NCBI RefSeq assembly: GCF_019890615.1
Contig: NZ_JAINVZ010000038.1
Coordinates: 1 to 43,224, forward strand
Source of the DNA: Streptantibioticus parmotrematis
GTDB lineage: Bacteria; Actinomycetota; Actinomycetes; Streptomycetales; Streptomycetaceae
Reading direction: 5' to 3'
Length of the DNA stretch: 43,224 nucleotides
The notes beneath the pieces are model-generated. The model searched no databases and was not told the origin of the DNA. It worked only from the letters and a program-made list of their open reading frames with translations. Every line of letters starts with the position of its first letter. Position 1 is the first letter of the stretch. The position numbers were made by a program, and so were the translations under genes. Positions 5,453 through 36,008 of the stretch are shown here, one piece after another.

Positions 5453-6337
5453 CTACAACTCTCGTGCTAGTCGTTGCATGAACTCGGGGGTCTCCTCGGA
5501 CGGGAGTGCCGAGGCGATCATCTGGTTGAACCTACGGGTGAACCGTGCCACCTCCTTGGGCTTGTCCGAAGTCGACACTGCCCCCCAAGCGTTGTCCACC
5601 TGGACCATCGGGGGAAGCCCGTCACCCAGATCGAGGATGGCCAAGTCGCTGCTCGCCCGATACCCCCGACCGCTGATGGGCAGCACCTGGATTTTGACAT
5701 GGTCGAGTTCCGACAGCCTCGTGATCTCCTCGTACTGCTCGCGCATGACGTCGGGGCCCCCGATGGCGTACCGGAGCCCCGCCTCGCCGAGGATCGCCCA
5801 CAACTTGACCGGATCGGGATCACGCGCCAGGACGCGCTGCTTGCGCTCCATGCGCAGTGCCACGTTGACACGGTTGAACTCGCTGGTCGTCTCTTCGATG
5901 GGCTTCTCGATCTCGAAGATCGCCTGAGCGTATGCCTCGGTCTGGAGTAGCCCATGCACCACCTGCGGGTGGTAGATCCTGATCTCCTGAGCCTCGGCCT
6001 CGATGCCCACGAATCCCTGCATCGTGGGGAGCATCTGGCCCCGGTAGCGCGTCACCCAGTCCTGGCTGGTCGCGTCACGGTTCATCTCGACGAAGGAGTC
6101 AATGGTCTCCTCGTCGTCCACCCCGTACTTGGCCAGCAGCTTTCGTAGGTCGCCGACTTTGCGGAAGTTGAGGCCCCCGGTCTCGATCCGTTGGAGTGCG
6201 GCTTCGGAGAGCTTCGTTCCCTGCACCGCCACCTTGCGGGTCATCGGCTTGCCGTTGACCAAGATGTTCTCGCGGATGCCTCTCAACTGGAGACCCAGTT
6301 CGAGACGCCTGCCTGTCGCCCCCCGCTTCGCTGCCAC
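5453..6337 (-). CDS. WhiJ-like helix-turn-helix regulator with DUF5753 domain
   Basis: The start is GTG at 6337, preceded at 7 nt by a strong AGGAGGG; the frame upstream of it is probably leader. The product has 294 residues. The N terminus (GRRLELGLQLRGIRE...TKLSEAALQRIETG) is an Xre-type HTH in which the first loop carries an insert (NILVNGKPMTRKVAVQG). Residues from about 100 to the end match the DUF5753 effector domain (YRGQMLPTMQGFVGIEAEA, then YHPQVVHGLLQTEAYA and VRF/FNQMIASAL-type segments). Proteins of this type are DNA-binding developmental or metabolic regulators in Streptomyces, paired with DUF397 proteins. The paired gene is directly downstream, and an anti-sigma-like ATPase diverges from it. 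Its likely operators are the dyads in the 6338-6611 gap. Confidence 0.9.
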   Translation of the reverse strand: MAAKRGATGRRLELGLQLRGIRENILVNGKPMTRKVAVQGTKLSEAALQRIETGGLNFRKVGDLRKLLAKYGVDDEETIDSFVEMNRDATSQDWVTRYRGQMLPTMQGFVGIEAEAQEIRIYHPQVVHGLLQTEAYAQAIFEIEKPIEETTSEFNRVNVALRMERKQRVLARDPDPVKLWAILGEAGLRYAIGGPDVMREQYEEITRLSELDHVKIQVLPISGRGYRASSDLAILDLGDGLPPMVQVDNAWGAVSTSDKPKEVARFTRRFNQMIASALPSEETPEFMQRLAREL

Positions 6338-6370
6338 CTGTGCGCCCTCCTTGTGCCCGTGTGCCGACCT

Positions 6371-6401
6371 CAAGGTGCCCTGTGCGCAGTGTTGCACCTT
6401 G
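6371..6401. promoter_or_regulatory. Perfect 8-bp inverted repeat upstream of HTH gene
   Basis: CAAGGTGC at 6371-6378 is repeated exactly in inverted orientation (GCACCTTG) at 6394-6401 with 15 nt between. It lies 34 nt upstream of the GTG start of the HTH gene. It fits either an operator for the HTH protein itself (autoregulation) or a leader stem-loop. Confidence 0.45.
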
Positions 6402-6554
6402 TGTTCGGGGCTGGCAGCCCCTTGTGCAGGTTCATGCATAGTCCAATGTCGTCTCCGCTGAATTTTCAATGCAGATGCGGTTGCAGATGAACCTACCTAC
6501 ACGAGACGGTAGTTGAGCCAGCACGAACGCGGGCGGCGAAGTCGTGATTCCCCA

Positions 6555-6611: not shown

Positions 6612-7115
6612 ATGGCTGTCACTGCGCTGGGCCCGGAGATCCTTGAGGAGCTACGAGCCGGGTGCTCTTCGGACGCCGTGCCCGCCGTCCTTGACGACCT
6701 TCATCTGACCATTGAACGTGAGGGCCCGGTAATCGGTACGGAACTGCCGGACGCCGCCGCTGTCTGGGTCGGGCGTCTTCGCCGGATCGGCCGGGCCAAG
6801 CTGAACGCCTGGGGTCTGACAGCATTGGTTGATGACGCGCAGCTACTGATCAGCGAACTTGTCACGAACGGTCTCCGGCACAGCACCGAGCAGCAGATCA
6901 CCTTTCGTCTGGTGGTCGGCACGGACGTGCTGGTGATGGAGGTGGATGACGGTTCGCCTGCTCTACCGCGACTCCGCCAGGCCGACTCCGATGCGCTCGA
7001 CGGCCGCGGCCTCCTCCTCGTGGATGCGGTTGCAGCGTCCTGGGGCGTCAGCTCGGACGGTACGAGGACCTGGTGCACCCTCAAGTTCCCTGACACGGCA
7101 CGGAGAAGTCGATGA
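6612..7115 (+). CDS. Anti-sigma regulatory factor-like ATP-binding protein (HATPase_c_2)
   Basis: The 167-residue protein has the GHKL ATPase signatures of the RsbW/SpoIIAB-like family. The N box is DDAQLLISELVTNGLRHS (Glu, Asn and His as expected), the G1-type segment is VMEVDDGSPALPRL, and GRGLLLVDAVAASWGV forms the ATP lid region. It starts at ATG 6612 after GCGGAGGAGTGGGGC, which has good Shine-Dalgarno character. Homologues bind ATP and restrain partner regulators by protein contact. It diverges from the HTH/DUF397 pair, completing a triad typical of Streptomyces. Its stop overlaps the next start as ATGA. Confidence 0.9.
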   Translation: MAVTALGPEILEELRAGCSSDAVPAVLDDLHLTIEREGPVIGTELPDAAAVWVGRLRRIGRAKLNAWGLTALVDDAQLLISELVTNGLRHSTEQQITFRLVVGTDVLVMEVDDGSPALPRLRQADSDALDGRGLLLVDAVAASWGVSSDGTRTWCTLKFPDTARRSR

Positions 7116-8266: not shown

Positions 8267-8440
8267 ATGAGTCCCCAGATCACCCACAGCAGGCAGGCAC
8301 AGCCCACGGGCCTCGGCGCGTCGGACGGCTTTGACCTGGACGTCACCCTGGTCGAGGTCGGCGACACCGCCGGGCTGGTCAGCCTGACCGACGACGGCTG
8401 CGGCGAGACCTGCGGCGCCTGCACGACCAACGTCGCCTGA
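8267..8440 (+). CDS. FxLD family lanthipeptide precursor
   Basis: The 57-residue peptide starts at ATG 8267 after GGGAG. An upstream in-frame TTG-type extension is not needed. The leader carries the family motif FDLDV at residues 22-26 (F-x-L-D), and the core region is LTDDGCGETCGACTTNVA. The core has three Cys (45, 49, 52) and nearby Ser/Thr (39, 41, 48, 53, 54), which supply thioether partners. Asp-Asp-Gly (42-44) is a favoured site for succinimide or isoaspartate formation, matching the methyltransferase encoded downstream. LanB should dehydrate Ser/Thr, LanC should close rings, and the FxLD methyltransferase should act on Asp. The leader protease and exporter are not in this window. The mature product and its activity are unknown. 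Confidence 0.92.
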   Translation: MSPQITHSRQAQPTGLGASDGFDLDVTLVEVGDTAGLVSLTDDGCGETCGACTTNVA

Positions 8441-8459
8441 TCAAGGCACACGGAATCCA

Positions 8460-8494
8460 GGCCGGTGCCTTCGCGCAGCGCGAAGGCACCGGCC
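8460..8494 (+). terminator. 17-bp perfect hairpin between precursor and lanB: attenuator
   Basis: Arms 8460-8476 and 8478-8494 are exact inverted complements with one base between, so the real loop is the central 3-5 nt. The hairpin starts 19 nt after the precursor stop and ends 26 nt before the lanB start. A strong GC hairpin here is typical of lanthipeptide operons, where it protects precursor mRNA and lowers read-through into enzyme genes. Confidence 0.8.
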
Positions 8495-8520
8495 GCCCGC
8501 CTGGACCCCCGAAGGTTGCG

Positions 8521-11500
8521 ATGGCTTCGAGCACCGCGTTCCGCGCCGGGAAGACTGCTCTCCTCCGTGCGGTCGCCCAGCCGGAACTTCACGTTCCCCC
8601 CTGCCCAGACCTGGACGCCACCTCTGCGCAGGACACGGCAGCCCGCCTCGCGTGGCTGCGCGAGGTCTCGGCCGTGGAAGACCTCGCCGAGGCCCTGGAG
8701 CACGCCAGCCCGGTCCTGGCCGCCCAGGTTCGGGCACTGTGCTCCGCCGAAACTCCGTCCGACCGCGATGTGCGGCGAGCCGCTGCCTCGGTGGCTCGCT
8801 ATGTGTCGCGCGCCGCGCAACGGGCAACCCCCTTCGGACTGTTCGCCGGCGTGGCCCCAGCCATGATCGGCACTCGGGCCGAGGCGAACTGGGGCTCCGA
8901 CCACACGGTGGTCGCGCGGACCAGCGCGGAGTGGCTGACGGCGGTCGTGGAGCGGCTGGAGTCCTGCCCCGAACTGGTGGAACGGCTTGCTGTGACCCTC
9001 AACAACGCCGCCCAGGTGCGCGGCGGACAACTCGTGGTGCCGTACCAGTCCGACGGCCAGGGCGAGCGGCAGCGGGCAGTCGAGGCGTCCATGGCCCTGA
9101 CCGATCCGGTACGCATGGTCTTGGACACCGTCCGGGAACCCATCTCTGTGGGCACCCTCGCCGACAAGCTGGTGGCGGACTTCCCCACAGCGGGCCAGCG
9201 GAGGGCGCAGCAACTCGTACGAGGGCTGATCCACAACCACGTGCTGATCACCAGCCTCCACGCGCCGAGCACGGAGACCGAGGTTCTGAGCTACCTGCTC
9301 GGACAACTCGACGCCGTGAACGCAGACACGATCGCGCCCGTGGCCGACCTGATCCGTGATCTGCGCTCGGTGCAAGCCGAACTGCACGGGTGCGGCACCC
9401 GGCGCGACCGAACCGCGGCTGCCGACAGGATGCGCGCACTCGTTCCGGACCTCCGCCGCCATCCCCTCGCCCTCGACCTGTGCTTGGACGCCACGGTCGA
9501 GTTGCCGGATCTGGTCGCCCGCGAGATCGAGCGCGCCGCCAGCGTCCTGACCCGGGTCAGCCCCCTGCCCTACGGGACCGCCGCGTGGAAGGCATACCAG
9601 CGGCGGTTCTACGAGAAGTACGGCATCGGCACGCTGGTGCCCCTCAACGAGGTCGTCGCCGACAGCGGCACCGGCTTCCCCGACGGATATCCCGGCACCC
9701 GGGCCGCCGATCGTCGCTCGCGCCTGTCCGTTCGCGACGACACCTTGGTGCGACTGGCGCAGGCCGCCGTTCTCGACGGCCGCGACGAGGTGATCCTCAC
9801 CGACGAGGTGATCGCCGCCATGGACCTGGGGCCGGAATCTCCGAGGGTGCCTCCTCACCTGGAACTGACCGTGCAGGTGCACGCCGCGAGCACTGAGGAG
9901 CTGCAACGGGGCCGCTTCCGTCTCGAATTGGTGAGCGTGTCGCGCGGCGTCGGCGTCACCACCGGCCGCTTCCTCAGTGTGCTGGCTCCCGAGGATCACG
10001 AGCGGCTGACCGCAGAGCTGTCTGACCTGCCGACCGCCGACGCCGGCACCGTCGCTGCCCAGTTGTCCTTCCCTCCACTGCGTCCCACCAGCGCCCACGT
10101 CACCCGTGTCCCGCAGGTCCTGCCCACCGTGATCAGCGTCCAGGAGCACCGAGGTACCGACAGCGACGTGCTCACGCCGCACGACCTGGCGGTGGGCTGC
10201 GACGGACGCCGCATGTACCTGGCGGCACCGAAGCGCGGCCTGCGGATCGAGGCCGTAGGGATGCACGCGCTGAACCTCAAGGAGCACACGCCGCCCTTGG
10301 TCCGGTTCCTCACTGAGCTGCCCCGCGCCCAGTGCGCGCAGGTCACCATGTTCGACTGGGGCGCCGCGGAGGCGATGCCGTTCCTACCCCGGCTGCGCTA
10401 CGGCCGCACGGTGCTCGCCCCGGCCCGATGGTGGCTGGAGGCCGCCGAGCTGCCCGGCCGTGACTGCCCGCAGGACGAGTGGGACGCCGCTCTCCAGGGG
10501 TGGGGCACCCGGCGGAGGTTGCCGGGGCGGGTCCACCTGGCCGAAGGCGATCGACGCCTCCTCCTCGACCTCGCCCTCGCCGCGCACCGAACCCTGCTGC
10601 GCCAGCACCTCACCCGGGCCCCGTCGGCGGTGCTTGTGGAAGTCCCTGATCTCGACGCCTACGGCTGGAGCGATGGGCGCGCACACGAGGTCGTTGCACC
10701 TCTCAGGGCGGTCCGGCCCCCGGCTTGGCCCGTGCTACCGGCCCCCACCCCCGCCCGGACCTTCTCCCCGGCGCAGATCCAGACGCCGGGCGTCTCCTCG
10801 CTGCTGCTCGCCACGCTCTACGGCGACCTGCGCCGACAAGACGTCCTCCTCGCTCGCTACGTCCCTGACCTGTTGGACCGGCTCAGTGATCCGCCCTGGT
10901 GGTTCATCCGATTCCGCGACCCGGACCACCACCTCCGGCTGCGCATCGCGCTGCCGGAATCCGACGCCTTCGCCGAGACCGCACATGCTGTTGGCACCTG
11001 GGCCAACGAGCTACGCGCAGCCGGCCTGTTGTCGGACGTACGCTTCCCGACGTCTTACCGCGAGATGGGCCGATGGGGCTCCGGCTCAGCGTGGGACGCA
11101 GCCGAGGACGTCTTCCGCGCCGACTCGCGATCCATCGTGGCCCAGCTCGGCCTGCGGCAGCAACCGTCCAGGCGCGCGCTGGTGGCCGCCCACACCATCG
11201 CTATCGCCACAGCGTTCCTCGGTAGCACCGAGGCCGCGATGCGCTGGCTGGCCGCCAACATCCCCTCCTCGATGCACGCTCGCGTGCCGCGCCCGGAGTT
11301 CACCGAAGTCGTACGGCTGGCCGACCCGACCAACGACTGGGCGGCGCTGCGCGACGTAGCAGGCGGGCAGGCCATCGTGGAGGCGTGGAGAGAACGGGAC
11401 GCGGCACTATCCGCTTACCGCCCCCACCTCTTCGGCCCGGACACCCAAGGAGTCCACCCGGACGACGTCCTCTCCTCGCTGCTGCATGTCCACTTCGTGC

Positions 11501-11592
11501 GGCACGTCGCGGTCGACTTCCCGGAGGAAGAAGTCTGCCTCTACCTCACCCGCGCCGCCGCCCTGGCCTGGCTGTCTCGGAGGGCACGGTGA
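8521..11592 (+). CDS. Lanthipeptide dehydratase LanB (full length)
   Basis: The 1023-residue protein starts at ATG 8521 after GAAGG. The N-terminal lantibiotic dehydratase domain runs from about residue 15 to 700 and carries the hallmark RATPFGLFAGVA near residue 100. The C-terminal SpaB_C-type elimination domain runs from about 745 to 1020 (PWWFIRFRDPDHHLRLRI, YREMGRWG, SLLHVHFVRHVAVD). Enzymes of this type glutamylate Ser/Thr of the precursor using glutamyl-tRNA and then eliminate glutamate to give dehydroalanine or dehydrobutyrine. Both halves are present in one chain here. The stop overlaps the lanC start as GTGA, so the two are translationally coupled. It acts in the cytoplasm, probably with LanC. 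Confidence 0.93.
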   Translation: MASSTAFRAGKTALLRAVAQPELHVPPCPDLDATSAQDTAARLAWLREVSAVEDLAEALEHASPVLAAQVRALCSAETPSDRDVRRAAASVARYVSRAAQRATPFGLFAGVAPAMIGTRAEANWGSDHTVVARTSAEWLTAVVERLESCPELVERLAVTLNNAAQVRGGQLVVPYQSDGQGERQRAVEASMALTDPVRMVLDTVREPISVGTLADKLVADFPTAGQRRAQQLVRGLIHNHVLITSLHAPSTETEVLSYLLGQLDAVNADTIAPVADLIRDLRSVQAELHGCGTRRDRTAAADRMRALVPDLRRHPLALDLCLDATVELPDLVAREIERAASVLTRVSPLPYGTAAWKAYQRRFYEKYGIGTLVPLNEVVADSGTGFPDGYPGTRAADRRSRLSVRDDTLVRLAQAAVLDGRDEVILTDEVIAAMDLGPESPRVPPHLELTVQVHAASTEELQRGRFRLELVSVSRGVGVTTGRFLSVLAPEDHERLTAELSDLPTADAGTVAAQLSFPPLRPTSAHVTRVPQVLPTVISVQEHRGTDSDVLTPHDLAVGCDGRRMYLAAPKRGLRIEAVGMHALNLKEHTPPLVRFLTELPRAQCAQVTMFDWGAAEAMPFLPRLRYGRTVLAPARWWLEAAELPGRDCPQDEWDAALQGWGTRRRLPGRVHLAEGDRRLLLDLALAAHRTLLRQHLTRAPSAVLVEVPDLDAYGWSDGRAHEVVAPLRAVRPPAWPVLPAPTPARTFSPAQIQTPGVSSLLLATLYGDLRRQDVLLARYVPDLLDRLSDPPWWFIRFRDPDHHLRLRIALPESDAFAETAHAVGTWANELRAAGLLSDVRFPTSYREMGRWGSGSAWDAAEDVFRADSRSIVAQLGLRQQPSRRALVAAHTIAIATAFLGSTEAAMRWLAANIPSSMHARVPRPEFTEVVRLADPTNDWAALRDVAGGQAIVEAWRERDAALSAYRPHLFGPDTQGVHPDDVLSSLLHVHFVRHVAVDFPEEEVCLYLTRAAALAWLSRRAR

Positions 11593-12860
11593 CCAGTCCC
11601 CTCGCGCTGGAGGTCGCGGACGCCGTCGCCGACCTCTTGGCCGATCCCAACACCGCCCCGGTGAGCCCGCGCACCACAACCACCGACCGGCAGCAACTCG
11701 CCTACGGCCCGCTGGGAATCGCACTGCTGCACATCGAGCGAGCCGCAGCCGACCGCGGCCCGTGGCAGCGCGCCCAAGCCTGGCTCGCAGCCGCCACCCG
11801 GGAACCCTTCACGAGCGGACCCGACAGCCATCCCTTCTACGGTGCCCCGGCGCTCGCCCATGCCGTGGCGTGCGCCGCCGACCACCAACCTGCTTCGTAC
11901 CAGCGCGCCCTCCGAGACCTGGACGCGCAGATCGACCGCGACGTACGCCGTCGTCTGGATGCAGCGCACCGCCGGATCGACGCCGGCGAACTGCCGGAGC
12001 TGGCCGAGTTCGACGTAATCCGTGGTCTCAGCGGCTACGGCGCCCACCTACTCCACCGCGACCCGCTGAGCCCGACTCTGAGCAGGGTCCTGCACTACTG
12101 CGTCCGTCTCGCCGAGCCGGTCGGGCACGACGGCGAACGACTGCCCGGCTGGTGGGCAGCTTCCGGGCCCTCCGGCCGCCCGGACGAACGCTTCCCCGGA
12201 GGACACGCGAACAGCGGCATGGCCCACGGCATCGGAGGAGTCCTCGCCCTGCTGGCCCTCGCTGCCCGGCAGGGCAACACCGTCGGCGGCCACTACGAGG
12301 CGATCCGAACGATCTTGGCGTGGCTCGACCGGTGGCGAGAGAACGGCCCCGGCCCGGCTTGGCCGTACTGGGTCACGCGTGACGAACTCCGCGACGGTCG
12401 TCTCGCCCCTGTCGCCCCGCGCCGCCCCTCGTGGTGCTACGGAACCGTCGGCCTCGCCCGTGCCCAGCAGCTCGCGGCCCTCGCCCTGGGCGACTCCCCC
12501 CGCCAGGCCGAGGCCGAGAACGACCTCGTCGCCGCCATCACAAACTCCGCGCAGCTCAAAGCCACGGTTGATGACGGCCTGTGCCACGGCATCTCCGGGC
12601 TTGCCCACGTCGCGGCCCGGACGGCCGCCGACGCACTTCCCTCAACCGCCTCGCAGATCCGGACGGTCATACCGGCTCTCCTGAGCGTGTTGTGCCCGCC
12701 GGGCGCCTACCCCGCCGCGGTGGCCGCGGCCCTGCTGAAGGACGAGGGAGCGGGGCCCGGCTTCCTCGACGGGGCCGCAGGGACAGCCTTTGCCCTGCTC
12801 GCACCTGCCTCCGCCGCCTCGCCCGTATCCGCCTGGGACTCCTGCCTGCTCCTCGCCTGA
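11589..12860 (+). CDS. LanC-like lanthipeptide cyclase
   Basis: The 423-residue protein starts at GTG 11589, overlapping the lanB stop. LanC landmarks are in order: GHANSGMAHGIGG with the catalytic-site His, PSWCYGTVGLA with the first zinc Cys, and LCHGISGLAH with the second zinc Cys and zinc His. The alpha-alpha toroid repeats (GLSGYGAHLL, GIGGVLALLALAA, GTVGLARAQQL, GISGLAHVA, GFLDGAAGTAFALL) are recognisable. All three zinc ligands are present, so it should be active. It adds Cys thiols of the core to dehydrated residues to form thioether rings. The methyltransferase start is 23 nt downstream. Confidence 0.93.
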   Translation: MTSPLALEVADAVADLLADPNTAPVSPRTTTTDRQQLAYGPLGIALLHIERAAADRGPWQRAQAWLAAATREPFTSGPDSHPFYGAPALAHAVACAADHQPASYQRALRDLDAQIDRDVRRRLDAAHRRIDAGELPELAEFDVIRGLSGYGAHLLHRDPLSPTLSRVLHYCVRLAEPVGHDGERLPGWWAASGPSGRPDERFPGGHANSGMAHGIGGVLALLALAARQGNTVGGHYEAIRTILAWLDRWRENGPGPAWPYWVTRDELRDGRLAPVAPRRPSWCYGTVGLARAQQLAALALGDSPRQAEAENDLVAAITNSAQLKATVDDGLCHGISGLAHVAARTAADALPSTASQIRTVIPALLSVLCPPGAYPAAVAAALLKDEGAGPGFLDGAAGTAFALLAPASAASPVSAWDSCLLLA

Positions 12861-12882
12861 CGTCTCCGATCGAAGGACCCCC

Positions 12883-14964
12883 ATGGACCACGACCGCTGG
12901 CACCAGCACAACATCGTCTTCATCGAGCGCGAGAACGGCAAGCGCGCCATCGCCGAACGCCTCGGTCCCGCGCTGCTCGCGGCGGAGCGCGCCGGACAGC
13001 TCGGAGGCTGGTGGTTCATGAACAAGCAGCCGTGGCCACTGCGCTACCGGGCCGTCGAGCCGTCACCGCTGGTTGAGTCGGCCTTGAGCGGACTCGTTGA
13101 GGACGGCACGGTGCAATCCTGGCTGCCCGGCATCTACGAGCCGGAATCCGCCGCCTTCGGTGGAGCCCTCTCGATGGACGCCGCCCACGACCTGTTCCAC
13201 GAGGACAGCAGGCACCTGCTCACCTACCAGCCCGGTCCGGGACGCGTCGGGCGCAGGGAGACCGCTGTCCTGCTGTTCAGCGCCCTGATGCGTGCCGCCA
13301 ATCTGGACTGGTTCGAGCAGGGAGACGTCTGGGCGAAGGCCGCCGCGCTGCGCACAGCCCCCGTCCCTCTCACACCGGAGCGGACCGCCGCCCTCATACC
13401 GGCGATGCGCACGCTGATGACCGTCGACGCCCACAGCCTGTCCGTCGCGGGCGGCCCCCTCGACGGCCACGCCGAGTGGGTGGCGGCGTTCGAGCGGGCC
13501 GGTACGACGCTGGCCTACCTCGCCAGCGGTCCCGGCCTCTCGCGTGGCCTACGAGCCGTCATCGCCCACCACGTGATCTTCCACGCCAACCGGGCTGGTC
13601 TCCTTCCAGACGACCAGAGCGCCCTGTTCAACATCGCACGAGAGGCAGTCATGGGATCGAGTGACAACACCGCGTCGTCCGCCGGGAGCACGCCCGAAAG
13701 CACTAGCGTCAGGGCGGTGAACACCGACACGATCACCACCTCCCAGGCCGACGCCGCGCGGCTCCGCAACGACCTGGTCGACAAGATCCGTGAGTCCGGA
13801 TACGCCCGCACTCCCGAGGTCGAGAACGCTCTGCGCACGGTGCCGCGCCACCTGTTCGTGCCGGACTCAACTCTCGAAGACGCCTACGCCAACACCCCGG
13901 TGAACGTGAAGTACGACACCGACGGCACGTCGATCTCCTGCGCCTCACAACCCGGAGTCGTCGCCCTCATGCTGGACCAACTGGAGGCTCAGCCCGGCGA
14001 GCGCATCCTCGAACTCGGCGCTGGCACCGGCTACAACGCCGCCCTCCTCGCGCAACTCGTCGGCGAGAGCGGCCACGTCACGACCATCGACGTCGACGAC
14101 GACCTCGTGGAGGGGGCCCGCGAGCACCTGGCCGCAGCCGGGGTCACCAACGTGGAGGCCCTGACCCGCGACGGGGCGGTCGGTCATGCGGAGGGAGCGC
14201 CGTACGACCGGATCATCGCAACCGTCGGCGCGCACGGGGTCCCGCACGCCTGGATGCAGCAACTCTCCGACGGGGGACGGCTCGTCGTGCCCCAGCGTCT
14301 CAAGGGCAGCGTGTCTCGATCCATCGCCTACGAGAAGCGCGACGGCCGCTGGACCAGCGTCAGCAGCAAGATGAACACGTTCATGCCGCTGCGGCGGGGC
14401 ATCGCCGACGACGACCGCCGCGTCATCACGCTCAGCAGCGACGGCACCGTACGCCTCCAGGCCCCCGCCGGGCAGACCATCGACGCCGAGGCCCTGGCCG
14501 GTGTGCTGGAACAGCCGCGCACCGAGGAGTGGACCGGGATGATGGTCCGGGCTATGGAGTCCCCGGAGTGGATGGAGCTGTTCGTCTCCTGCTCCGTGCC
14601 CAGCGGGCTGATCCGGATGCTGTTTCCGCAGGACGCCAAGGGGACGGTCCTCACGGACGATCCCTACCCGTCATCCACCGCAGCCGTGGACAAGGGCGCC
14701 CTCACCTACCTCGCCCGGCGCCTGTCGGAGCAGAAGACCCCGGAGGGCGGCAAGCTCTGGGAGTTCGGGGTCATCGGCCACGGACCCGGCAGCGAGGACC
14801 TGATCGCACGGGTCGCCGACGCGATTCGCACGTGGGACCGCGAGTTCCGGGACCGTGAGGCCACGTTCGAGATCCAGGACCTGGGCGCTCCGGCACTGGA
14901 GCCGAGCCCCGGTCTCTTCGCTCTGGACACCCCGCTGAACCGCATCGTCATCGACTGGCGGTGA
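12883..14964 (+). CDS. FxLD-system O-methyltransferase fused to thiopeptide-type bacteriocin domain
   Basis: The 693-residue protein starts at ATG 12883 after GAAGGACC. Residues about 5-255 (RWHQHNIVFIERENGKRAIA, WWFMNKQPWPLRYR, then AHDLFHEDSRHLL) match the thiopeptide-type bacteriocin biosynthesis domain related to SpaB_C. Residues about 290-480 are a protein-L-isoaspartate O-methyltransferase domain, with RTVPRHLFVP, the SAM-binding LELGAGTGYNAALLAQL near 374-390, and YDRIIATVGAHGVP. The C-terminal 200 residues are specific to the FxLD family. It probably methylates an Asp side chain of the modified peptide, which then collapses to succinimide and hydrolyses to isoaspartate or stays as aspartimide. 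The Asp-Asp-Gly in the precursor is the likely target, by inference. Confidence 0.9.
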   Translation: MDHDRWHQHNIVFIERENGKRAIAERLGPALLAAERAGQLGGWWFMNKQPWPLRYRAVEPSPLVESALSGLVEDGTVQSWLPGIYEPESAAFGGALSMDAAHDLFHEDSRHLLTYQPGPGRVGRRETAVLLFSALMRAANLDWFEQGDVWAKAAALRTAPVPLTPERTAALIPAMRTLMTVDAHSLSVAGGPLDGHAEWVAAFERAGTTLAYLASGPGLSRGLRAVIAHHVIFHANRAGLLPDDQSALFNIAREAVMGSSDNTASSAGSTPESTSVRAVNTDTITTSQADAARLRNDLVDKIRESGYARTPEVENALRTVPRHLFVPDSTLEDAYANTPVNVKYDTDGTSISCASQPGVVALMLDQLEAQPGERILELGAGTGYNAALLAQLVGESGHVTTIDVDDDLVEGAREHLAAAGVTNVEALTRDGAVGHAEGAPYDRIIATVGAHGVPHAWMQQLSDGGRLVVPQRLKGSVSRSIAYEKRDGRWTSVSSKMNTFMPLRRGIADDDRRVITLSSDGTVRLQAPAGQTIDAEALAGVLEQPRTEEWTGMMVRAMESPEWMELFVSCSVPSGLIRMLFPQDAKGTVLTDDPYPSSTAAVDKGALTYLARRLSEQKTPEGGKLWEFGVIGHGPGSEDLIARVADAIRTWDREFRDREATFEIQDLGAPALEPSPGLFALDTPLNRIVIDWR

Positions 14965-15063: not shown

Positions 15064-16164
15064 ATGGACCCGCACGGCCCGATAGCAAGGCGCTTCCCGC
15101 TCGTGGCCCGGTTCCGGCCTGCCTGCCCACCGCTGCCCGCCCGTATCCGGGCGCTGACGGAACTCGCCGACAGGGCCGTTGAGGAAGATGGACAGGGGCT
15201 GGCCTCCACCGTCTTCAACCAGGCCGCGCTTCTCGCGTCCGATCTCGGTCTTCCCGAGCTGGCCCGCTCGATGTGCCACCGGCACGCCGACGCGTACCTT
15301 CGGGCCTGCCCGCTCACCGCGATGAGCGCCATCCGAGGACTGGAACCGCTGGTCAACCTGGCCCGATTGCAGATCCGCGCCGGCCAGACCGATGACGGGC
15401 GTCACCGGCTTCTTGACCTGTACGAAGCTGTGGGCGCCGGGAACACCGCCGTCTTCGAGGGCATCACCGTGCCCCCCGCACTGACCACGACTGTCGAGGA
15501 ACGGCGCGAAGTCCACGCATGGCTCTGGCGCGTGGTACTCGCCGACGGCACACGCACCCTCACCACCACAGGCCGCTGGCGCGAGGCTCTGGCCCACATC
15601 GAGCAGCACCGAGGCGTGGGTACCAGGATGCTTGACGGGCGACAAGTCGCCGTAGTGGCGGCCCTCACGGGGGGCGACCGGGAACGCGCGGCGGCGCTGC
15701 TCGCCGAGACAGCCCCAGGTGAACCGTGGGAGCAGGCTGTCACCGCGTGCTTGGTGGTCCTCTCCCGCCGCGACGTCCCGCAGCGAGAGGACGGCAGTGC
15801 GGCCGAGCTGGTGAACATCTTCCTCGGCCGTGAGGCGGAGCCGGGCTTGACCGTCTTCGACACCAGGCTTGGCCTCACGGTCCTTGACGCGGTCGGGCTG
15901 GAGCACCCCGGAGCCCGCTCGGTCGCCGAGGACTTGATGCGGCGGGCCACCGCGTCACTCAACGGCTACGCCGCCCGCGACCTGATCTCGCACGCGCTGT
16001 TCGCCGCACTTGCCACCGACGGCGAAGCCCGTGCCTGCCGCGACCTGATCCGGGCCTGCGGGCTGGGAGCGGAACTTCTTCCCGATGAGTTGTCGAGTGA
16101 ACTCTCGACGGCACTGGACCGCAGTGAGGCAGTGATCACCCAATCGTCAGCGGCTGCGGCGTGA
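15064..16164 (+). CDS. Helical-repeat (TPR-like) protein, unknown function
   Basis: The 366-residue protein starts at ATG 15064 after a G-run (CCCCGGGGGGCAC). The sequence consists of paired helices with TPR-like spacing: LASTVFNQAALLASDLGLPELARSM, AIRGLEPLVNLARLQI, GRWREALAHIEQHRG, then ACRDLIRACGLG. There is no catalytic motif, signal peptide or membrane segment. Such proteins often sit beside FxLD loci and HTH/ATPase triads in Streptomyces, so it may be a regulator or scaffold lacking its own DNA-binding domain. It lies after the terminator and is therefore probably expressed separately from the enzymes. Confidence 0.75.
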   Translation: MDPHGPIARRFPLVARFRPACPPLPARIRALTELADRAVEEDGQGLASTVFNQAALLASDLGLPELARSMCHRHADAYLRACPLTAMSAIRGLEPLVNLARLQIRAGQTDDGRHRLLDLYEAVGAGNTAVFEGITVPPALTTTVEERREVHAWLWRVVLADGTRTLTTTGRWREALAHIEQHRGVGTRMLDGRQVAVVAALTGGDRERAAALLAETAPGEPWEQAVTACLVVLSRRDVPQREDGSAAELVNIFLGREAEPGLTVFDTRLGLTVLDAVGLEHPGARSVAEDLMRRATASLNGYAARDLISHALFAALATDGEARACRDLIRACGLGAELLPDELSSELSTALDRSEAVITQSSAAAA

Positions 16165-17117: not shown

Positions 17118-17611
17118 ATGGCGCGGATGGGTCGGCCGACGGTCGAAGTGGTCCTGACGGATGACGAGCGGGAGACGTTGCTTCGCTGGTCACGGCGTGC
17201 AACGTCTGCCCAGGCCCTGGCGCTGCGCTGCCGGATCGTCTTGGCGTGCGCCGACGGGTTGTCGAACACGCAGGTGGGCAAGGATCTTGGGCTCCATCCG
17301 ACGACGGCGGCGACCTGGCGCAAGCGTTTCGCTGCCCACCGGCTGGAGGGTTTGGCGGACGAGAAGCGGCCGGGGCCGGCCCGCACGGTGACCGACGACC
17401 AGGTCGAGGACGTGATCGTGCGGACGCTGGAGACCACGCCGAAGGGTGCCACCCACTGGTCCACGCGGGAGATGGCGAAGCAGAGCGGGCTGAGTCAGTC
17501 GACCGTCTCGCGGATCTGGCGCACCTTCGGCCTCAAGCCGCACCAGGGGGACACCTTCAAGCTCAGCAAGGACCCGCAGTTCGTCGAGAAGGTCCGCGAC
17601 GTGGTGGGCCT
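17118..17611 (+). pseudogene. IS630 family transposase, N-terminal part only
   Basis: The start codon ATG 17118 leads MARMGRPTVEVVLTDDERET, a helix-turn-helix region (LSNTQVGKDLGLHPTTAATW) and HWSTREMAKQSGLSQSTVSR. Homology runs to FVEKVRDVVGL and then stops. The DDE catalytic domain that normally follows (CVDEKSQIQAL-type segment) is absent, replaced by foreign sequence in another frame, so it cannot make an active transposase. Confidence 0.85.
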
Positions 17612-18256
17612 CGGCACGTCCACAAGACCCGCAGCCACCAGCAGGACGGCTTCAAGGCCTACCTCGCCTTCGAACCCGAGACCGGGCTGTTCACCGCCGT
17701 CGCCCTGCGGCCCGGCACCGGCGCCGAGCACCACGAAGCCGCCGTCGCCCTGGACTTACTGGGCGAGGAGGACGGCCCCCTGGACGTGCTGGGCGACACC
17801 GCCTACTCCAGCAGTCGGGCCCGCCAGGCCCTGGAAGAAGCCGGTCACCGGCTCTTCGTGAAGCCGCCACCCCTGCGGCCCGCCGTCCCCAGCGGCTTCG
17901 CCCTGGACGACTTCGCCATCGACACCACCGCCGACACGGTGACCTGCCCCCAAGGCCACACCGTCGAACTCGCCCCACCACGCGGACAGCACCAGCAGCG
18001 CAAGGCGACCTTCGGGAGCCTGTGCACCGGATGCCCGCTGCACGAACGCTGCACCACAGCCAAGGCCGGGCGCATCCTGACCATCCGCCCGCACTACGAC
18101 CAGCAGGCCACCGCGCGCCGCCAGGCCGCCACCGACCCCGCCTGGCAGGCCGAATACCGCCGATGGCGACCGCCGGTCGAGCGGGCCGTCGCCTGGATCG
18201 TCCAGCACGGCAACCGCCGCCTGCACTACCGCGGCACCCTCAAGAACGACACCTGA
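17612..18256 (+). pseudogene. IS1182 family transposase, C-terminal fragment
   Basis: The frame starting at CGG 17612 reads HVHKTRSHQQDGFKAYLAFE, then LDVLGDTAYSSS, TVTCPQGHTVELAPP, CTGCPLHERCTTAKAGR and RRWRPPVERAVAWIVQHGNRR. This is the second half of an IS1182-type (DDE_Tnp_1_6) transposase, with the Cys cluster and the Glu-containing C-terminal region. There is no start codon of its own, and it ends early at LKNDT where the family normally continues. Confidence 0.85.
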
Positions 18257-20195: not shown

Positions 20196-22471
20196 TGGTC
20201 GACCTGGCCAAGGACGTGGCGGCCGGTGAAGGGCGTGGGCGTCGGTATACGGCGCGGGCGGAGCTGGTGCTGGCCCGGCCGGATCACCGGCCGCTGGCCT
20301 CTTTGGGCCTGAGCCCGGATCCGTTGCAGCGGATCGCGGGGGCGATGGGAACGGTGCGCAGCGAGGCCGGTGAGGAGGCGGAGGTGGTCCTCGACCTGGT
20401 GCCGGTGCCGGATGGGGTGGTCGCCCGGCGGCGCCGGCGGTTGATGCGGGGCGCGGCGCGGCGGGGGCCGTCCGCGTTCGGCGAGCGCATCGGCGGCGCC
20501 GGTGGTGGTGGGGGCTGGTTGTCCTCGCTCGCGGGCACGCTCAACGGCAAGCCCGCCGGGCCCAGGCAGGGGGCGGGCCGGGTACCGCGGCAGACGGATC
20601 TGGCCGACGGGGTGGGGAAGTTCGTCCCCGGGCAGGACGTCTTCCGTGTCCAGTTGCTGGTGCGGGTGACCGCGACGCATCCGGCGCGGGCGCAGGCGCA
20701 TCTGCACCAGCTGCTGGCGGCCTTGGAGATGTACGCGGGCGAGAACCGGTGGGTGCCGGTCGGTCCGCGGCGTACCGGGTGGCGGCCGTATTCGAATGTG
20801 TGGTGGCGGCGCGCGTCGTTCGATCGGCGGATCGGCAGCGGGGAGTTCGCTCCGGCGCGGCGGCAGTGGGTGACGCGGGCGGAGATCGCGGGCCTGCTCA
20901 AGCCGCCGACGGTGGAGTGCGCGGCGGCGAACGTGGCGCGGGGCGGGGGCATGGTGCCGCAGGCCCCGGCCGGGCTGCCGACGTGGAGCGGGCAGCCGGA
21001 TGTGGTGCCGCTCGGGCTGGTGACGGATGCGGACGGGCGGCCGCGGATGGGCGGGGTGTATGCGAAGGACACCTTGTTCGGCGCGTTCCTCGGAAAGTCC
21101 GGCAACGGCAAGTCGGAGATCGGTCTGGTGCAGGCGATCGCCCGCGCGTATGCCGGGCGGGGTGTGTGGTTTCTCGATCCGCACAACACGACGATCGAGC
21201 GGGCTCTGCCCTACCTGACGCATCCGGCGGTGCGCGACCGGGTCCAGCGGATCGACCTGAACACCCCCTCGATGGACGACATGGTCGCCTCCTGGAATCC
21301 GCTGTCGATGGCCGGGCGGCGCATCGAGCACGTCCAGGAGGTGATCGGCACGGTCGTCAACGCCGTGGCCGCGGCCCAGGGCTGGGGAGAAGGCGCGCCG
21401 CGGGCGCGCACGATTCTGGCGAACGCGGTGCAGGTCCTTGCGTGCTTGTCGAAGTGCATGATCGACGCGGGGCGGCCGGATCTGCAGCCGACGGTCTTCC
21501 AGATCAAGACGCTGCTGGAGGACGACGCGTGGCGCGAGGAAGTCCTCGCTCATCTGCCGGACCGGTTTCTGCCGGCGCGCTCGCGCCGGTTTTGGACCGC
21601 CAGCTTCCCCAAGTACTCTGGCGAGGCGCTCACTACCGTCACCAACGCGCTCAACCGGCTGGAGACTTCGCTGTCGATGCGGGCGTTCCTCGGCTCGCCG
21701 ACCGGCTCCTACAACGTGCGCCGTGCGATGGACACCGGCCAGGTGGTGTGGATCTGCCCGACCGGCGGCGGCGAGTGCGACGACCTGATCACCTCGATGC
21801 TCATCTACGACGTGTTCGTCGCCGGCCTGTCCCGCCGGGACACCTCCTTCGAGGACCTGGAGGAGTTCTGGGTCTGGATCGACGAGATGAGGGCCGTCGA
21901 CGGCGCCGGGCGCGGCTACATCGCCAAGGTTCTCGAGCAGCTGCGCAAGTACCAGGTGAGGATGATGGGGCTGACGCAGATGGCGATGCGGCTGTCCGAC
22001 GACACCCGCCAGGCGCTGCTGCAGAACCAGTCGATCCTGTCCGTGATGGCCTGCGACACCGACGAGGCGAAGTTCATCTCCGCGCGCCTCCCGCACGTGG
22101 AGCCCGCCACCGTCGCCAACCTGCCCAAGTACGAGTACGTGATGCGGGTGATGCTGGGCGGCGAGTACACCCAGCCGTTCCGCGTGCGGGGCGTGCCGGT
22201 CCACCAGGTCTACGCCGACTACTACGACCCGGCCGGACTGCCCGCCCTGGAGAAGGCGATCGACGCGAACCTCAAGCGGCGCCCCGTCGCGGAGATCCTC
22301 GCCGCGCTCGACTCCCTCGACAACGACATCCTCACCCACCTGACCGGCGGCGCCTCACCGGGCGGGCGGGCACCGGGCCGGCGGGCCGTTGAGGACGCGG
22401 ACGTCGTCCACGACCTGCCCTCCCGCACCCTCCCCGACAACCATCACGACGACGATGACGAGGTCGCCTGA
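20192..22471 (+). CDS. VirD4/TraG-like ATPase, type IV secretion or conjugation type
   Basis: The protein has about 759 residues (GTG 20192, or ATG 20195 in a TGATG overlap). Walker A is AFLGKSGNGKSEIG near residue 302. Walker B with the acidic pair is EFWVWIDEMRAV near 560. DPHNTTIE, YSGEALTTVTNALNRLET and MMGLTQMAMRLSDDTRQALL match the FtsK/HerA-type T4SS ATPase layout (VirD4/VirB4-like). The N-terminal 300 residues are specific and contain a Gly-rich linker. The His/Asp-rich C-terminal tail (HHDDDDE) is notable. It probably couples substrate transfer to a membrane channel as a hexameric motor. No relaxase is visible in the window. Confidence 0.85.
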   Translation: MMVDLAKDVAAGEGRGRRYTARAELVLARPDHRPLASLGLSPDPLQRIAGAMGTVRSEAGEEAEVVLDLVPVPDGVVARRRRRLMRGAARRGPSAFGERIGGAGGGGGWLSSLAGTLNGKPAGPRQGAGRVPRQTDLADGVGKFVPGQDVFRVQLLVRVTATHPARAQAHLHQLLAALEMYAGENRWVPVGPRRTGWRPYSNVWWRRASFDRRIGSGEFAPARRQWVTRAEIAGLLKPPTVECAAANVARGGGMVPQAPAGLPTWSGQPDVVPLGLVTDADGRPRMGGVYAKDTLFGAFLGKSGNGKSEIGLVQAIARAYAGRGVWFLDPHNTTIERALPYLTHPAVRDRVQRIDLNTPSMDDMVASWNPLSMAGRRIEHVQEVIGTVVNAVAAAQGWGEGAPRARTILANAVQVLACLSKCMIDAGRPDLQPTVFQIKTLLEDDAWREEVLAHLPDRFLPARSRRFWTASFPKYSGEALTTVTNALNRLETSLSMRAFLGSPTGSYNVRRAMDTGQVVWICPTGGGECDDLITSMLIYDVFVAGLSRRDTSFEDLEEFWVWIDEMRAVDGAGRGYIAKVLEQLRKYQVRMMGLTQMAMRLSDDTRQALLQNQSILSVMACDTDEAKFISARLPHVEPATVANLPKYEYVMRVMLGGEYTQPFRVRGVPVHQVYADYYDPAGLPALEKAIDANLKRRPVAEILAALDSLDNDILTHLTGGASPGGRAPGRRAVEDADVVHDLPSRTLPDNHHDDDDEVA

Positions 22472-32570: not shown

Positions 32571-35500
32571 ATGGCCGCCCATCCCCTGCGCATCGTCTCC
32601 GCGCTGCTGCGCTCCGCGCTCGCCCTCGCCGTTCTGGGCACGGCCTTGTTCGCCGCCCCCTACGCGATACTGCGCTGGGGCAGCCTCCCGCACTCCCTGC
32701 CCACCATCAGCGGCGTACAGCAGTTCCTGTCCGGGCCCGCCGATGACTCGTTGCTGCAAACCGCGATCACCCTGGTCGGGCTCGCCGCCTGGGCGTGCTT
32801 CGCCCTCTCCGTCGTCCTGGAACTGGCCGCGCTGCTACGCCACCAGGCCGCCCCCCGCCTGCGCGGACTGGGCGCGTTCCAGGGGGCCGCGGGATTCCTG
32901 ATCGGCAGCATCGTGCTGCTCGCCCCGACCGCCGCGTCCGCAGCCACCCTCACCGCCACCTCTGCGGCCGCCGCCGCCCACCACGCGACCACGGTGACGG
33001 CGCCCGGCGGGACATCAGCGCCTCGCACCGGTACGACGGCCGTACGGCACACCACCACCCGGGCGGAGACCACGTTGTGGGACCTGGCCGACACTCACCT
33101 CGGTGACGGCTTGCGCTGGAGGCAGATCGCCGACCTCAACCCCCAGCTCGCCGAAGGCCCCATCCCCGCCGGCACCGTTGTACGCCTGCCCGCCGACTCC
33201 ACCACTCCCCCGCCGCCGTCCGGCAACACGCCGCGTACCGACGACGAGACCACCGCGGCGCGCGCGCCGTCACCGACGACGCACTACATCGTCCGCACTG
33301 GCGACGACCTGTCGGACATCGCCCAGGACAAGCTCGGTGACGCCTCCCGGTGGCAGCAGATCTTCCGCCTTAACGAAGGCGAACAGCAGCCGGGCGGTGC
33401 CCGTTTTACCGACCCTGACCTGATCTACCCCGGGCAGAACCTCGCCCTGCCCGGCGCGGCGGCCACCGCACCCGAGGCGCCCCCCGCCACTGCCGACCAC
33501 ACACCGGCCCCCGAACACCACGCCTCCCCGGCACCCTCTACCTCCGCCTCGGCGACCTCACCGTCGCTGCCCCGCCAGCACGGCGGCGCCTCAACGCCGG
33601 AGCACCAGACCGCCCCGGCCACCCCGACGTCCACGCCCACTCCCCCGGCGGGCACGCCGACGCCGTCCGCCGCAGTTCCCTCCCTCTCCGAACCGACCAG
33701 CACGGCAACCGCCACACCGGATCTCGCGCACTCCCCCGCTCCGGCCACCGCCTCAACGGCGCGGACCGGCGCGGCCCGCCCGGTCAACGACCGCCTGATG
33801 CTGCTGCTCGGCGGCGGACTGCTGGCCGCATCCATCCTCACCGCCCTGGGCGCCCGGCGCATCTGGCAGCAACGCAGCCGCCGCCCCGGCCACCGGATCG
33901 CCATGCCCACCGGCAGCGCCGCCGCCACCGAAACGGCCCTGCGCGCGGCCGAGGACCCGACCGGCACCACCCTCATCGACGCCGCCCTGCGCACCGCCGC
34001 AGTCCACCTCGCCGACGACCGCCGGGAGTTGCCGGACCTGGCCGCTATCGTCTACGGCCCACGCGACGGCCTCACCCTCCACCTCGCCACTCCGGCGCCA
34101 CCCGTGATGCCGTTCACCGCCGAACCTGAGGACCAGACCCGCTGGCACTGCCCGCCCGACACCGAGGAACTCCTGGACGCCACGCGCACCGACGACGTCG
34201 ACGCCCCCTACCCGTCGCTCGTCGCCATCGGCGGCAACGACGAAGGCCACACCGTGCTCATCGACCTCGAGCACCACGGCACCGTGCGGGTCACCGGCTC
34301 AGGCCGCCGGGACGTGATGCGGGCGCTGGCCGTCGACCTGGCCACCAGCGTCCTCGCCGACTGCCTGGAAGCCACCGTCACCGGCCCGGTCTGCCCCGGC
34401 CTCGCCGCCCTGGTCCCCGAACGCCTCACCGAAGCAGCCGACCCGGCCACCGCGGTACGCCAGTTCAGCGCCCGGCACGCCGCCCAGCAGAAGGCCCTGT
34501 CCGCCGTCGGATCCGACGGGATGCGAGCCGCCCGCACAGGCGGAGACAACGAAGCCTCCTGGACCCCGCACCTCCTACTCGCCGACCACGACTTCGACCA
34601 AGACACCTGGCAGCACCTGACCACGGTCACCGAGGCGCGTCCGCGGACCGCATCAGCCATCGTGACGACCAGCGACACCAACACCGCCGCCCTTGGCGCA
34701 GGGTGGCAGGTCGTCTGCGACGGCAGCCCGGTCACCGTGCCGGGCACCACGGTCTCCTTCATCCCACTCGCGCTGACCGACACCGACTACGCCGACATCA
34801 TGCAGGCGCTGTCCACCACCACTGAGCCCGATCTGCCCGCGCCCCACGCCCAGACTTCCGCACCCGAGACCATCGCGCCGCCCGACGGAGCGCCCGCCGC
34901 CGCGACGGCACCGGCGGAAAGCCAGCACGAGGCAGACCGCCTCCGGTATCCCGCCCAGGACGGCGAGCCCGTCCTCGCGTGGGCTGACGACTCCGGCGAG
35001 GAAGGCGAGGACCTCATCGCTCAACTCGCGGGCGACCTGGAGGATCCCGGCCTCGACGATCAGGACGCGGACGGAACCGAGTTCGCAAACGACGACGGCA
35101 CCCTGCCCACTGCGGCCGCCATCGAGGTGCGCACGCCGGACGACTACGAACTCGCGCGCTCCGCCGAACCTCCTGTGGCCAACGCACCAGTAGCCGCCGC
35201 GGCGTTGGTCCCGGCAGAGCCCGCGGAACCGGGACCGGTGGCGGTGTCAGCGGAGGAGGCCGATGAGCCGTCGGCTCGGCAGGAGGAGGCCGGGCTGATG
35301 ATCCGGGTGCTGGGGCCGGTGGAGGTCACCGGCGCGGGCGGCACGATCGACAGCCGGTACCGGCGCACCTCCACCGAGCTGGCAGCCTGGATGGTCCTAA
35401 ATCCCGGCAGCGACCACCACGCGCTGGACGAGGCGATCTGGCCCGGCAAGACCGTCAGCCGCGGTACCCGCAACCCGGCGATCAGCCGACTGCGTACCTG

Positions 35501-36008
35501 GCTCGGCACCAACGAGGCCGGGCAAGACCACCTGCCGAAGGTCGCCACGAACCCCGACGTCCGCTACCGCCTCGCCACCTCCGCCCGATGCGACTGGCTG
35601 CTGTTCCAGCACCTGGCCGCGACCGGAACGGACGACAGCCTGCGCGCAGCACTGGAACTCGTACGCGGCCGCCCCTTCGCGGGCGTTCCAGCCCGCCACT
35701 ACGTATGGGCCGAACCCCTCATCCAGGAAATGATCGCCGCGATCGTCGACGCCGCAGCCGACCTCGGCGCCTCCCGGCTGGAGATGTGCGATCCACGCGG
35801 CGCCCTGTGGGCGGCCAGCAAGGGCCTGGACGCCGCACCCGAGATGGAAGTACTACACCGGATCGCGTTCCGCGCCCACCACGCACTCGGCGACCACCAA
35901 GGCCTCGAGCGGGCCATCCAACGCCTGGAGAACCTGCTGTTCGACCTCCAGACCGACATGGACAACGAGACCTCCGGGCTGCTCCACCAACTGGCCACCC
36001 TGGCGTAG
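32571..36008 (+). CDS. Large membrane protein with LysM repeats and C-terminal winged-helix/BTAD domain
   Basis: The 1145-residue protein starts at ATG 32571. There are membrane helices at about residues 8-30 and 60-85, and a third at about 105-125. Two LysM-type segments follow (TTLWDLADTHLGDGLRWRQI near 165, HYIVRTGDDLSDIAQDKLGD near 240), then a Pro/Thr/Ser-rich spacer and a further helix near 410 (LMLLLGGGLLAASILTALGA). The middle holds a Rossmann-like domain. The last 240 residues start MIRVLGPVEVTGAGG and continue as an OmpR-like winged helix plus bacterial transcriptional activator domain (LRAALELVRGRPFAG, LEMCDPRGALWAASKG). LysM binds peptidoglycan, whereas BTAD is usually found in SARP-type DNA-binding activators. 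The final gene of the locus could therefore sense the envelope or pilus and signal inside, by inference. Confidence 0.85.
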   Translation: MAAHPLRIVSALLRSALALAVLGTALFAAPYAILRWGSLPHSLPTISGVQQFLSGPADDSLLQTAITLVGLAAWACFALSVVLELAALLRHQAAPRLRGLGAFQGAAGFLIGSIVLLAPTAASAATLTATSAAAAAHHATTVTAPGGTSAPRTGTTAVRHTTTRAETTLWDLADTHLGDGLRWRQIADLNPQLAEGPIPAGTVVRLPADSTTPPPPSGNTPRTDDETTAARAPSPTTHYIVRTGDDLSDIAQDKLGDASRWQQIFRLNEGEQQPGGARFTDPDLIYPGQNLALPGAAATAPEAPPATADHTPAPEHHASPAPSTSASATSPSLPRQHGGASTPEHQTAPATPTSTPTPPAGTPTPSAAVPSLSEPTSTATATPDLAHSPAPATASTARTGAARPVNDRLMLLLGGGLLAASILTALGARRIWQQRSRRPGHRIAMPTGSAAATETALRAAEDPTGTTLIDAALRTAAVHLADDRRELPDLAAIVYGPRDGLTLHLATPAPPVMPFTAEPEDQTRWHCPPDTEELLDATRTDDVDAPYPSLVAIGGNDEGHTVLIDLEHHGTVRVTGSGRRDVMRALAVDLATSVLADCLEATVTGPVCPGLAALVPERLTEAADPATAVRQFSARHAAQQKALSAVGSDGMRAARTGGDNEASWTPHLLLADHDFDQDTWQHLTTVTEARPRTASAIVTTSDTNTAALGAGWQVVCDGSPVTVPGTTVSFIPLALTDTDYADIMQALSTTTEPDLPAPHAQTSAPETIAPPDGAPAAATAPAESQHEADRLRYPAQDGEPVLAWADDSGEEGEDLIAQLAGDLEDPGLDDQDADGTEFANDDGTLPTAAAIEVRTPDDYELARSAEPPVANAPVAAAALVPAEPAEPGPVAVSAEEADEPSARQEEAGLMIRVLGPVEVTGAGGTIDSRYRRTSTELAAWMVLNPGSDHHALDEAIWPGKTVSRGTRNPAISRLRTWLGTNEAGQDHLPKVATNPDVRYRLATSARCDWLLFQHLAATGTDDSLRAALELVRGRPFAGVPARHYVWAEPLIQEMIAAIVDAAADLGASRLEMCDPRGALWAASKGLDAAPEMEVLHRIAFRAHHALGDHQGLERAIQRLENLLFDLQTDMDNETSGLLHQLATLA

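Follow-up and report, generated by a model that had tools for sequence, protein, structure and literature searches.

A probable lanthimiditide-type lanthipeptide operon with a second elimination-type domain and a conserved helical-repeat gene in Streptantibioticus parmotrematis

Gene content of the operon

Contig NZ_JAINVZ010000038.1 of Streptantibioticus parmotrematis, 43,224 nucleotides long and analyzed as a whole (the window), carries five genes in the same direction between positions 8267 and 16164. They encode an FxLD precursor peptide, the dehydratase LanB, the cyclase LanC, a fusion protein of 693 residues and a helical-repeat protein of 366 residues of the tetratricopeptide repeat (TPR) type. 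We read this operon as one for a class I lanthipeptide of the lanthimiditide kind, modified by LanB, LanC and a methyltransferase of the protein isoaspartyl methyltransferase (PIMT) type along the pathway proposed below, and we put the probability of this reading at about 0.83. The initial annotation had listed the precursor, LanB, LanC and the FxLD methyltransferase as intact, and rightly so, since all four frames are open and match TIGR04363, TIGR04364 and the Pfam domain models. What it overlooked was a second elimination-type domain fused to the methyltransferase, the last gene of the operon (15064–16164) and a hairpin behind the precursor gene.

Relatives were brought in with the fusion protein as the query, and the best 80 of 143 loci were kept; counts out of 80 refer to these. 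Another 40 loci, chosen for having a standalone methyltransferase, were used for comparison. The gene order is common to the window and the 80 related loci and recurs far beyond chance. Close relatives in the family search came from Streptomyces and allied genera. TIGR04363 and TIGR04364 each had a single match in the 7.4 Mb genome, and among 394 sampled Streptomycetaceae genomes the former was matched in 135 (E ≤ 0.001) and the latter in 180 (E ≤ 1e-50), the 180 genomes with an FxLD methyltransferase hit making class I lanthipeptides of this kind very common in the Streptomycetaceae.

The precursor peptide

The precursor gene (8267–8440, plus strand, as are all genes of the operon) encodes a peptide of 57 residues with FDLDV in its leader, which scored 45.8 bits against TIGR04363 (cut-off 30) and hence belongs to the FxLD family. 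Its core, which had been read correctly before, is LTDDGCGETCGACTTNVA. A precursor could be parsed in 72 of 81 sequences (the window plus the 80 loci; the unparsed ones are L041, L058, L072, L081, L085, L097, L102, L109 and L110), one being counted per locus, and the core was identical in 10 of the 72, the window included. As nine of the 80 other loci thus share it, the earlier suggestion that this exact core might be new did not hold.

Apart from that of L076, which is longer, the parsed cores have 18 residues, and these 71 were compared. Asp4, Cys6, Gly7, Cys10, Gly11, Ala12 and Cys13 were invariant (71/71), the parsing pattern itself already requiring Asp4, Cys6 and Gly or Asn at residue 5. 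A looser pattern without the demand for Asp4 and Cys6 recovered the same precursors minus L083, together with two spurious peptides and another peptide of L090. The latter is a second FxLD-like precursor (L090:5013) with a GDTC core and lies directly upstream of the first. Residue 2 was Thr in 70 cores and Asn in one, residue 3 Asp in 67 and Asn in four, and residue 5 Asn in 50 and Gly in 21. Because Asp4 is invariant and residues 3 and 5 vary, Asp4, the second Asp of the DDG stretch, is the likely methylation target, and the first Asp and the Gly are likely to be dispensable. The window core carries TDDGC and so has the conserved Asp of a TxDGC-type lanthimiditide core. The DDG triplet as such, singled out in the initial annotation, is not a distinguishing feature of the peptide, given that its first residue may be Asp or Asn and that Asn follows the target more often than Gly does.

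In the window core, no residues other than Thr2 and Thr9 are both dehydratable and N-terminal to a Cys, and position 8 has Glu instead of the Ser or Thr of most relatives (Ser in 43, Thr in 17 and Glu in 11 of the 71 cores). With only two Thr residues preceding a Cys, canonical Thr-before-Cys rings would number at most two, so the previously predicted maximum of three rings would need an unusual one. The remaining Cys would be free, engaged in a disulphide or linked to Thr14 or Thr15 in a reversed ring.

Core identity was also compared at matched levels of methyltransferase identity, only 23 of the 40 standalone cores being parsed. At 60–70% methyltransferase identity the mean core identity was 0.80 in the fused clade (132 pairs) versus 0.62 in the standalone one (21 pairs), but at 70–80% and 80–90% it was 0.82 and 0.90 for fused versus 0.87 and 0.90 for standalone loci. 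Because the higher bins show no such gap, we make no strong claim of unusual core conservation in the fused clade. A search of viral contigs with the precursor found no relative.

LanB and LanC

LanB (8521–11592) is a tRNA-Glu-dependent Ser/Thr dehydratase with an elimination domain of its own. Its start is the ATG at 8521, although the frame from 8473 was used in the domain searches, in which it covered positions 4–649 of the 649 in the Pfam profile Lant_dehydr_N and also matched Lant_dehydr_C. It therefore has both the glutamylation and the elimination domain of a class I enzyme. R808, R851 and H989 stand at the places of NisB R786, R826 and H961; the R826 equivalent was placed through the NisB alignment, and that of H961 through the S958-H961-R966 spacing and an alignment to 9g04. 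Ala mutants of these three NisB residues glutamylate but do not eliminate, as described in PMC4979651 and, for H961, also in PMC4341554.

LanC (11589–12860, GTG start) is encoded separately and matched LANC_like, with WCYG at residue 282 and CHG at residue 332. We take these motifs to be zinc ligands with the same roles as in NisC.

The methyltransferase and its fused domain

The fourth gene (12883–14964), named fxlM at NCBI, joins an extra elimination-type domain to a PIMT-type O-methyltransferase. The AlphaFold model of the fusion protein is of moderate quality, with a mean predicted local distance difference test (pLDDT) score of 77.6 and residues 256–286 poorly defined. Its best solved fold match was 1dl5, the T. 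maritima PIMT with a C-terminal domain, and MibB (5ehk) came at rank 44. The protein scored 446 bits against TIGR04364 (cut-off 320), and its PIMT-type domain (13753–14958) has a C-terminal extension, as expected of the PIMT homologs in lanthimiditide clusters. Residues 626–635 read WEFGVIGHGP in the translation, whereas other groups of PIMTs acting on ribosomally synthesized and post-translationally modified peptides (RiPPs) have WXXXGXP according to PMC13001092.

Repair PIMT models also scored on the methyltransferase, and the likeness in fold extends to those enzymes, as would be expected if the methyltransferase reset spontaneously formed isoaspartate in the peptide to Asp. These scores were below the cut-offs of the repair models, however, and only the FxLD-specific model was exceeded among the methyltransferase models shown. 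Moreover, the C-terminal extension is of the kind seen in RiPP PIMTs, and PMC13001092 reports that OlvSA methylates Asp itself, though isoaspartate faster. We consider a repair function very improbable.

Residues 6–256 of the fusion protein (12898–13650) matched TIGR03891 with 139 bits and Pfam Lant_dehydr_C with 60 bits; a search of solved structures with this domain alone gave no significant sequence match. The domain keeps R54 as the equivalent of NisB R786, but Ala91 and Ala228 replace those of R826 and H961, so that the elimination triad is incomplete. A residue survey in an alignment of 112 LanB C-terminal domains, 79 fused copies and 35 standalone copies extended this result. At the R786 position, Arg was found in 100% of the fused and standalone copies versus 78% of the LanB domains. 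At the R826 position, 97% of the LanB domains have Arg and 97% of the standalone copies have Ala; the fused copies have Ala (74%) or Thr (18%) there. The H961 position holds His in 99% of LanB domains, Ala (57%) or Ser (37%) in standalone copies and Ala (88%) or Thr (10%) in fused ones. Fused and standalone copies have in common an insertion with an EQGDVW-type motif that is absent from LanB, and in both a His shared with LanB (H230 of the fusion protein) is followed by a three-residue insertion and then NR.

With two of the three elimination residues lost, the simplest reading is that the fused domain no longer eliminates glutamate. The matches to TIGR03891 and Lant_dehydr_C and the Arg retained in all fused and standalone copies at the R786 position, where LanB itself is less strict, would suit a working second elimination domain that speeds up dehydration, so that the operon would have two. 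Such a duplicate activity appears improbable to us in view of the replacement, in nearly all of these copies, of the two residues that LanB keeps, of the insertion that LanB does not have, and of the NisB mutants R826A and H961A, which glutamylate without elimination (PMC4979651).

A homolog of the fused domain was encoded as a separate gene in 37 of the 40 standalone-methyltransferase loci (in 36 of them along most of the domain, in one partially), and it is therefore a regular partner of the methyltransferase; the remaining three loci also lacked LanB and LanC in the stretch examined. This partnership, the fusion itself and the loss of two elimination residues are what one would expect of a non-catalytic module that holds the cyclized peptide and presents it to the methyltransferase, and we regard this role as quite possible, if somewhat short of an even chance. 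The conservation of R54, E145, G147, D148, W150, R157, H230, N236 and R237 at 97–100% across fused and standalone copies speaks against it, since a module with holding as its only task would hardly seem to require so much. The two lost elimination residues, the EQGDVW-type insertion and the FxxNR motif after the shared His are the basis of a more tentative proposal. According to it, the fused domain may be a new enzyme for an undescribed step on the dehydrated or cyclized core, coupled to Asp methylation by the fusion and with the TPR-type protein as a peptide-binding partner. On balance we find this rather unlikely; if true, the mature product would have a modification beyond thioethers and isoaspartate.

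The TPR-type gene

By tblastn (E ≤ 1e-4), 78 of the 80 loci had a homolog of the conserved last gene of the operon (15064–16164). For 77 of the 80 the match lay where expected and covered more than half the length, and 76 of these 77 had it on the same strand. The exceptions were L109, whose copy is distant (33% identity) and on the opposite strand, L041 with a partial one, L057, which ends right after the fusion gene, and L076, in which no homolog was found at this threshold. Among the sampled genomes, 104 of 394 had a match to the TPR-type family. Of 122 family hits that were placed, 69 were within 2.5 kb of a methyltransferase hit, and another 40 had a methyltransferase or precursor hit no farther than 10 kb away; 13 had neither nearby, among the matches listed. 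The gene is not universal in the wider family. It was present in 12 of the 40 standalone regions, each extending some 6 kb beyond the methyltransferase, and in none of the stretches downstream of 20 standalone clusters, which were picked because none was listed near them.

The model of the protein is all helical (pLDDT 92). The window protein matched TPR_7 weakly (E = 0.11), and TPR_4 was matched by 20 of 37 members at E ≤ 1, with 2.5e-6 as the best value. TPR folds occurred among the neighbors of the model with Z up to 12.6, values that are possibly generic for helical repeats, and the fold list favors no function. It does include the peptide receptors NprR, RapH, RapI and RapF. Together with the presence of the gene next to the operon in 78 of the 80 loci, and with 109 of the 122 hits lying, among the matches listed, at most 10 kb from an FxLD methyltransferase or precursor hit, this would agree with a receptor inside the cell that senses the peptide product, which would then be a signal and not an antibiotic. 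We think a receptor unlikely: Z values of 10–12.6 may be generic, the top rows include the unrelated Scc4 and LGN, no DNA-binding domain was matched in the protein, and the gene was missing downstream of the 20 standalone clusters selected as having none listed. The gene is labelled 'hypothetical protein' on two plasmid records, with homology at 59–60% identity, and word searches in the main text of papers on these clusters, PMC7268733 included, did not find it named.

The intergenic hairpin and the flanking DNA

Between the precursor gene and LanB, positions 8460–8494 (plus strand) can form a stem-loop of 16 contiguous pairs (folding z −3.73). In an alignment of 29 of the 71 loci, 10 of the 16 pairs were changed on both sides and 96.4% of cells were paired, versus 3.8 pairs and 88.0% in shuffles, none of 500 reaching either observed value. 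The result was the same with 25 sequences, when four loci with short perfect stems were excluded; in the set of 29, L052 was masked (N) and L047 pairs less well. A perfect stem of at least 12 pairs was found in 59 of 71 loci versus 8 of 213 control windows. The mean hairpin z of −10.2 was inflated by outliers and was not used. The hairpin is probably an attenuator. Attenuators of such a kind between lanA and lanB are familiar.

No protease or exporter was found among the genes common to at least 12 of the 80 loci, as judged from three reference loci with only some of their genes identified. Homologs of the ABC transporters of two plasmid-borne annotated relatives were matched in five of the 80 loci, and the window had no match to these transporters. 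In a scan for consensus sites nothing promoter-like turned up, and the single terminator-like site was on the minus strand; shuffled sequences gave more. Upstream of the operon, the gene of a DUF5753 protein, in which a helix-turn-helix match stayed below threshold (5453–6469, minus strand), diverges from that of a HATPase protein (6612–7115, plus strand). Because a HATPase homolog lies upstream of the operon in 48 of the 80 related loci, this divergent pair may be a regulator.

On the other side, the region 16198–37811 bears signs of mobile DNA. An IS630-type transposase match at 17118–17861 continues in another frame at 17246–18256; a replication-relaxation protein is encoded at 22471, and an ISL3-type transposase match lies at 36276. 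The open frame at 32571–36008 (1145 residues) gave a single LysM match. Two relatives of the operon sit on linear plasmids.

Proposed pathway

The order of the steps and the chemistry at Asp are inferred from OlvSA, as reviewed in PMC13001092. LanB would glutamylate the core Thr residues from glutamyl-tRNA and then eliminate glutamate, after which LanC would add Cys to give (methyl)lanthionines, most likely a Thr2–Cys6 ring with the target Asp4 inside it, and a second ring from Thr9. Asp4 of the cyclized peptide would then be methylated by the PIMT domain of the fusion protein, and the ester would close to an aspartimide that is hydrolyzed mainly to isoaspartate. The fused domain, without glutamate elimination, would present the substrate or carry out another reaction, and the TPR-type protein may bind the peptide or an enzyme. 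(Methyl)lanthionine and an aspartimide or isoaspartate are the probable features of the product, as predicted from the genes and from OlvSA. The initial assignment to the class I FxLD lanthipeptides with a PIMT-type enzyme is supported, and its aspartimide or isoaspartate at Asp-Gly is probable, being plausible by analogy with OlvSA.

Several points weigh against assigning the operon to the lanthimiditides with this pathway. Its chemistry is a prediction from genes and analogy, no characterized member with the fused form was found, and the account of OlvSA in PMC13001092, in the excerpts cited, mentions no fused domain. The core has acidic residues besides Asp4, namely Asp3 and Glu8. The core of L094, LNDDNCGSSCGACVTFTD, has no Thr2, from which the ring around the target Asp would be expected to form, so this ring is not universal. 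Finally, the second FxLD-like peptide of L090, which is outside the 71 cores, has Asp followed by Thr.

Comparison with known systems

The operon is an ordinary member of a known, widespread family, and its value lies in two conserved uncharacterized components, the fused domain and the TPR-type gene. PMC10787088 counts 1305 lanthipeptide clusters with such enzymes. The mature product and its role are not given in the excerpts of that paper or of PMC7268733. A literature search on the fxl gene names surfaced only unrelated papers, and one on elimination domain, PIMT and lanthipeptide surfaced only PMC7268733. A query of solved structures with an OlvA-like core did not recover the OlvA nuclear magnetic resonance entry.

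Families I 1–4 of PMC7268733, the most abundant class I precursors of Actinobacteria, resemble the window in the conserved Asp, the PF01135 enzyme and the extra elimination domain. This domain is described there as standalone or fused, and another reaction is raised as a possibility that was untried in that work; our residue survey bears concretely on the question whether it eliminates glutamate at all. In a word search, the main text of the same paper contained neither 'tetratricopeptide' nor 'TPR', whereas the window operon has a TPR-type gene.

OlvA and OlvSA of Streptomyces olivaceus NRRL B-3009 (PMC13001092) likewise form a class I system with a PIMT-type enzyme acting on Asp of the cyclized core. 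The review calls such peptides lanthimiditides, describes their core motif as TXDGC and notes that the methyltransferases may occur as fusions with glutamyl lyase domains. In contrast to OlvA/OlvSA as described in the review, the window has its methyltransferase fused to a second elimination-type domain, with a TPR-type gene next to it. The closest correspondence is with the FxLD system of NCBI (TIGR04363, TIGR04364, fxlM), in which the TPR-type gene is labelled hypothetical: both models were exceeded, the same operon is so annotated on two plasmids, and nothing essential differs.

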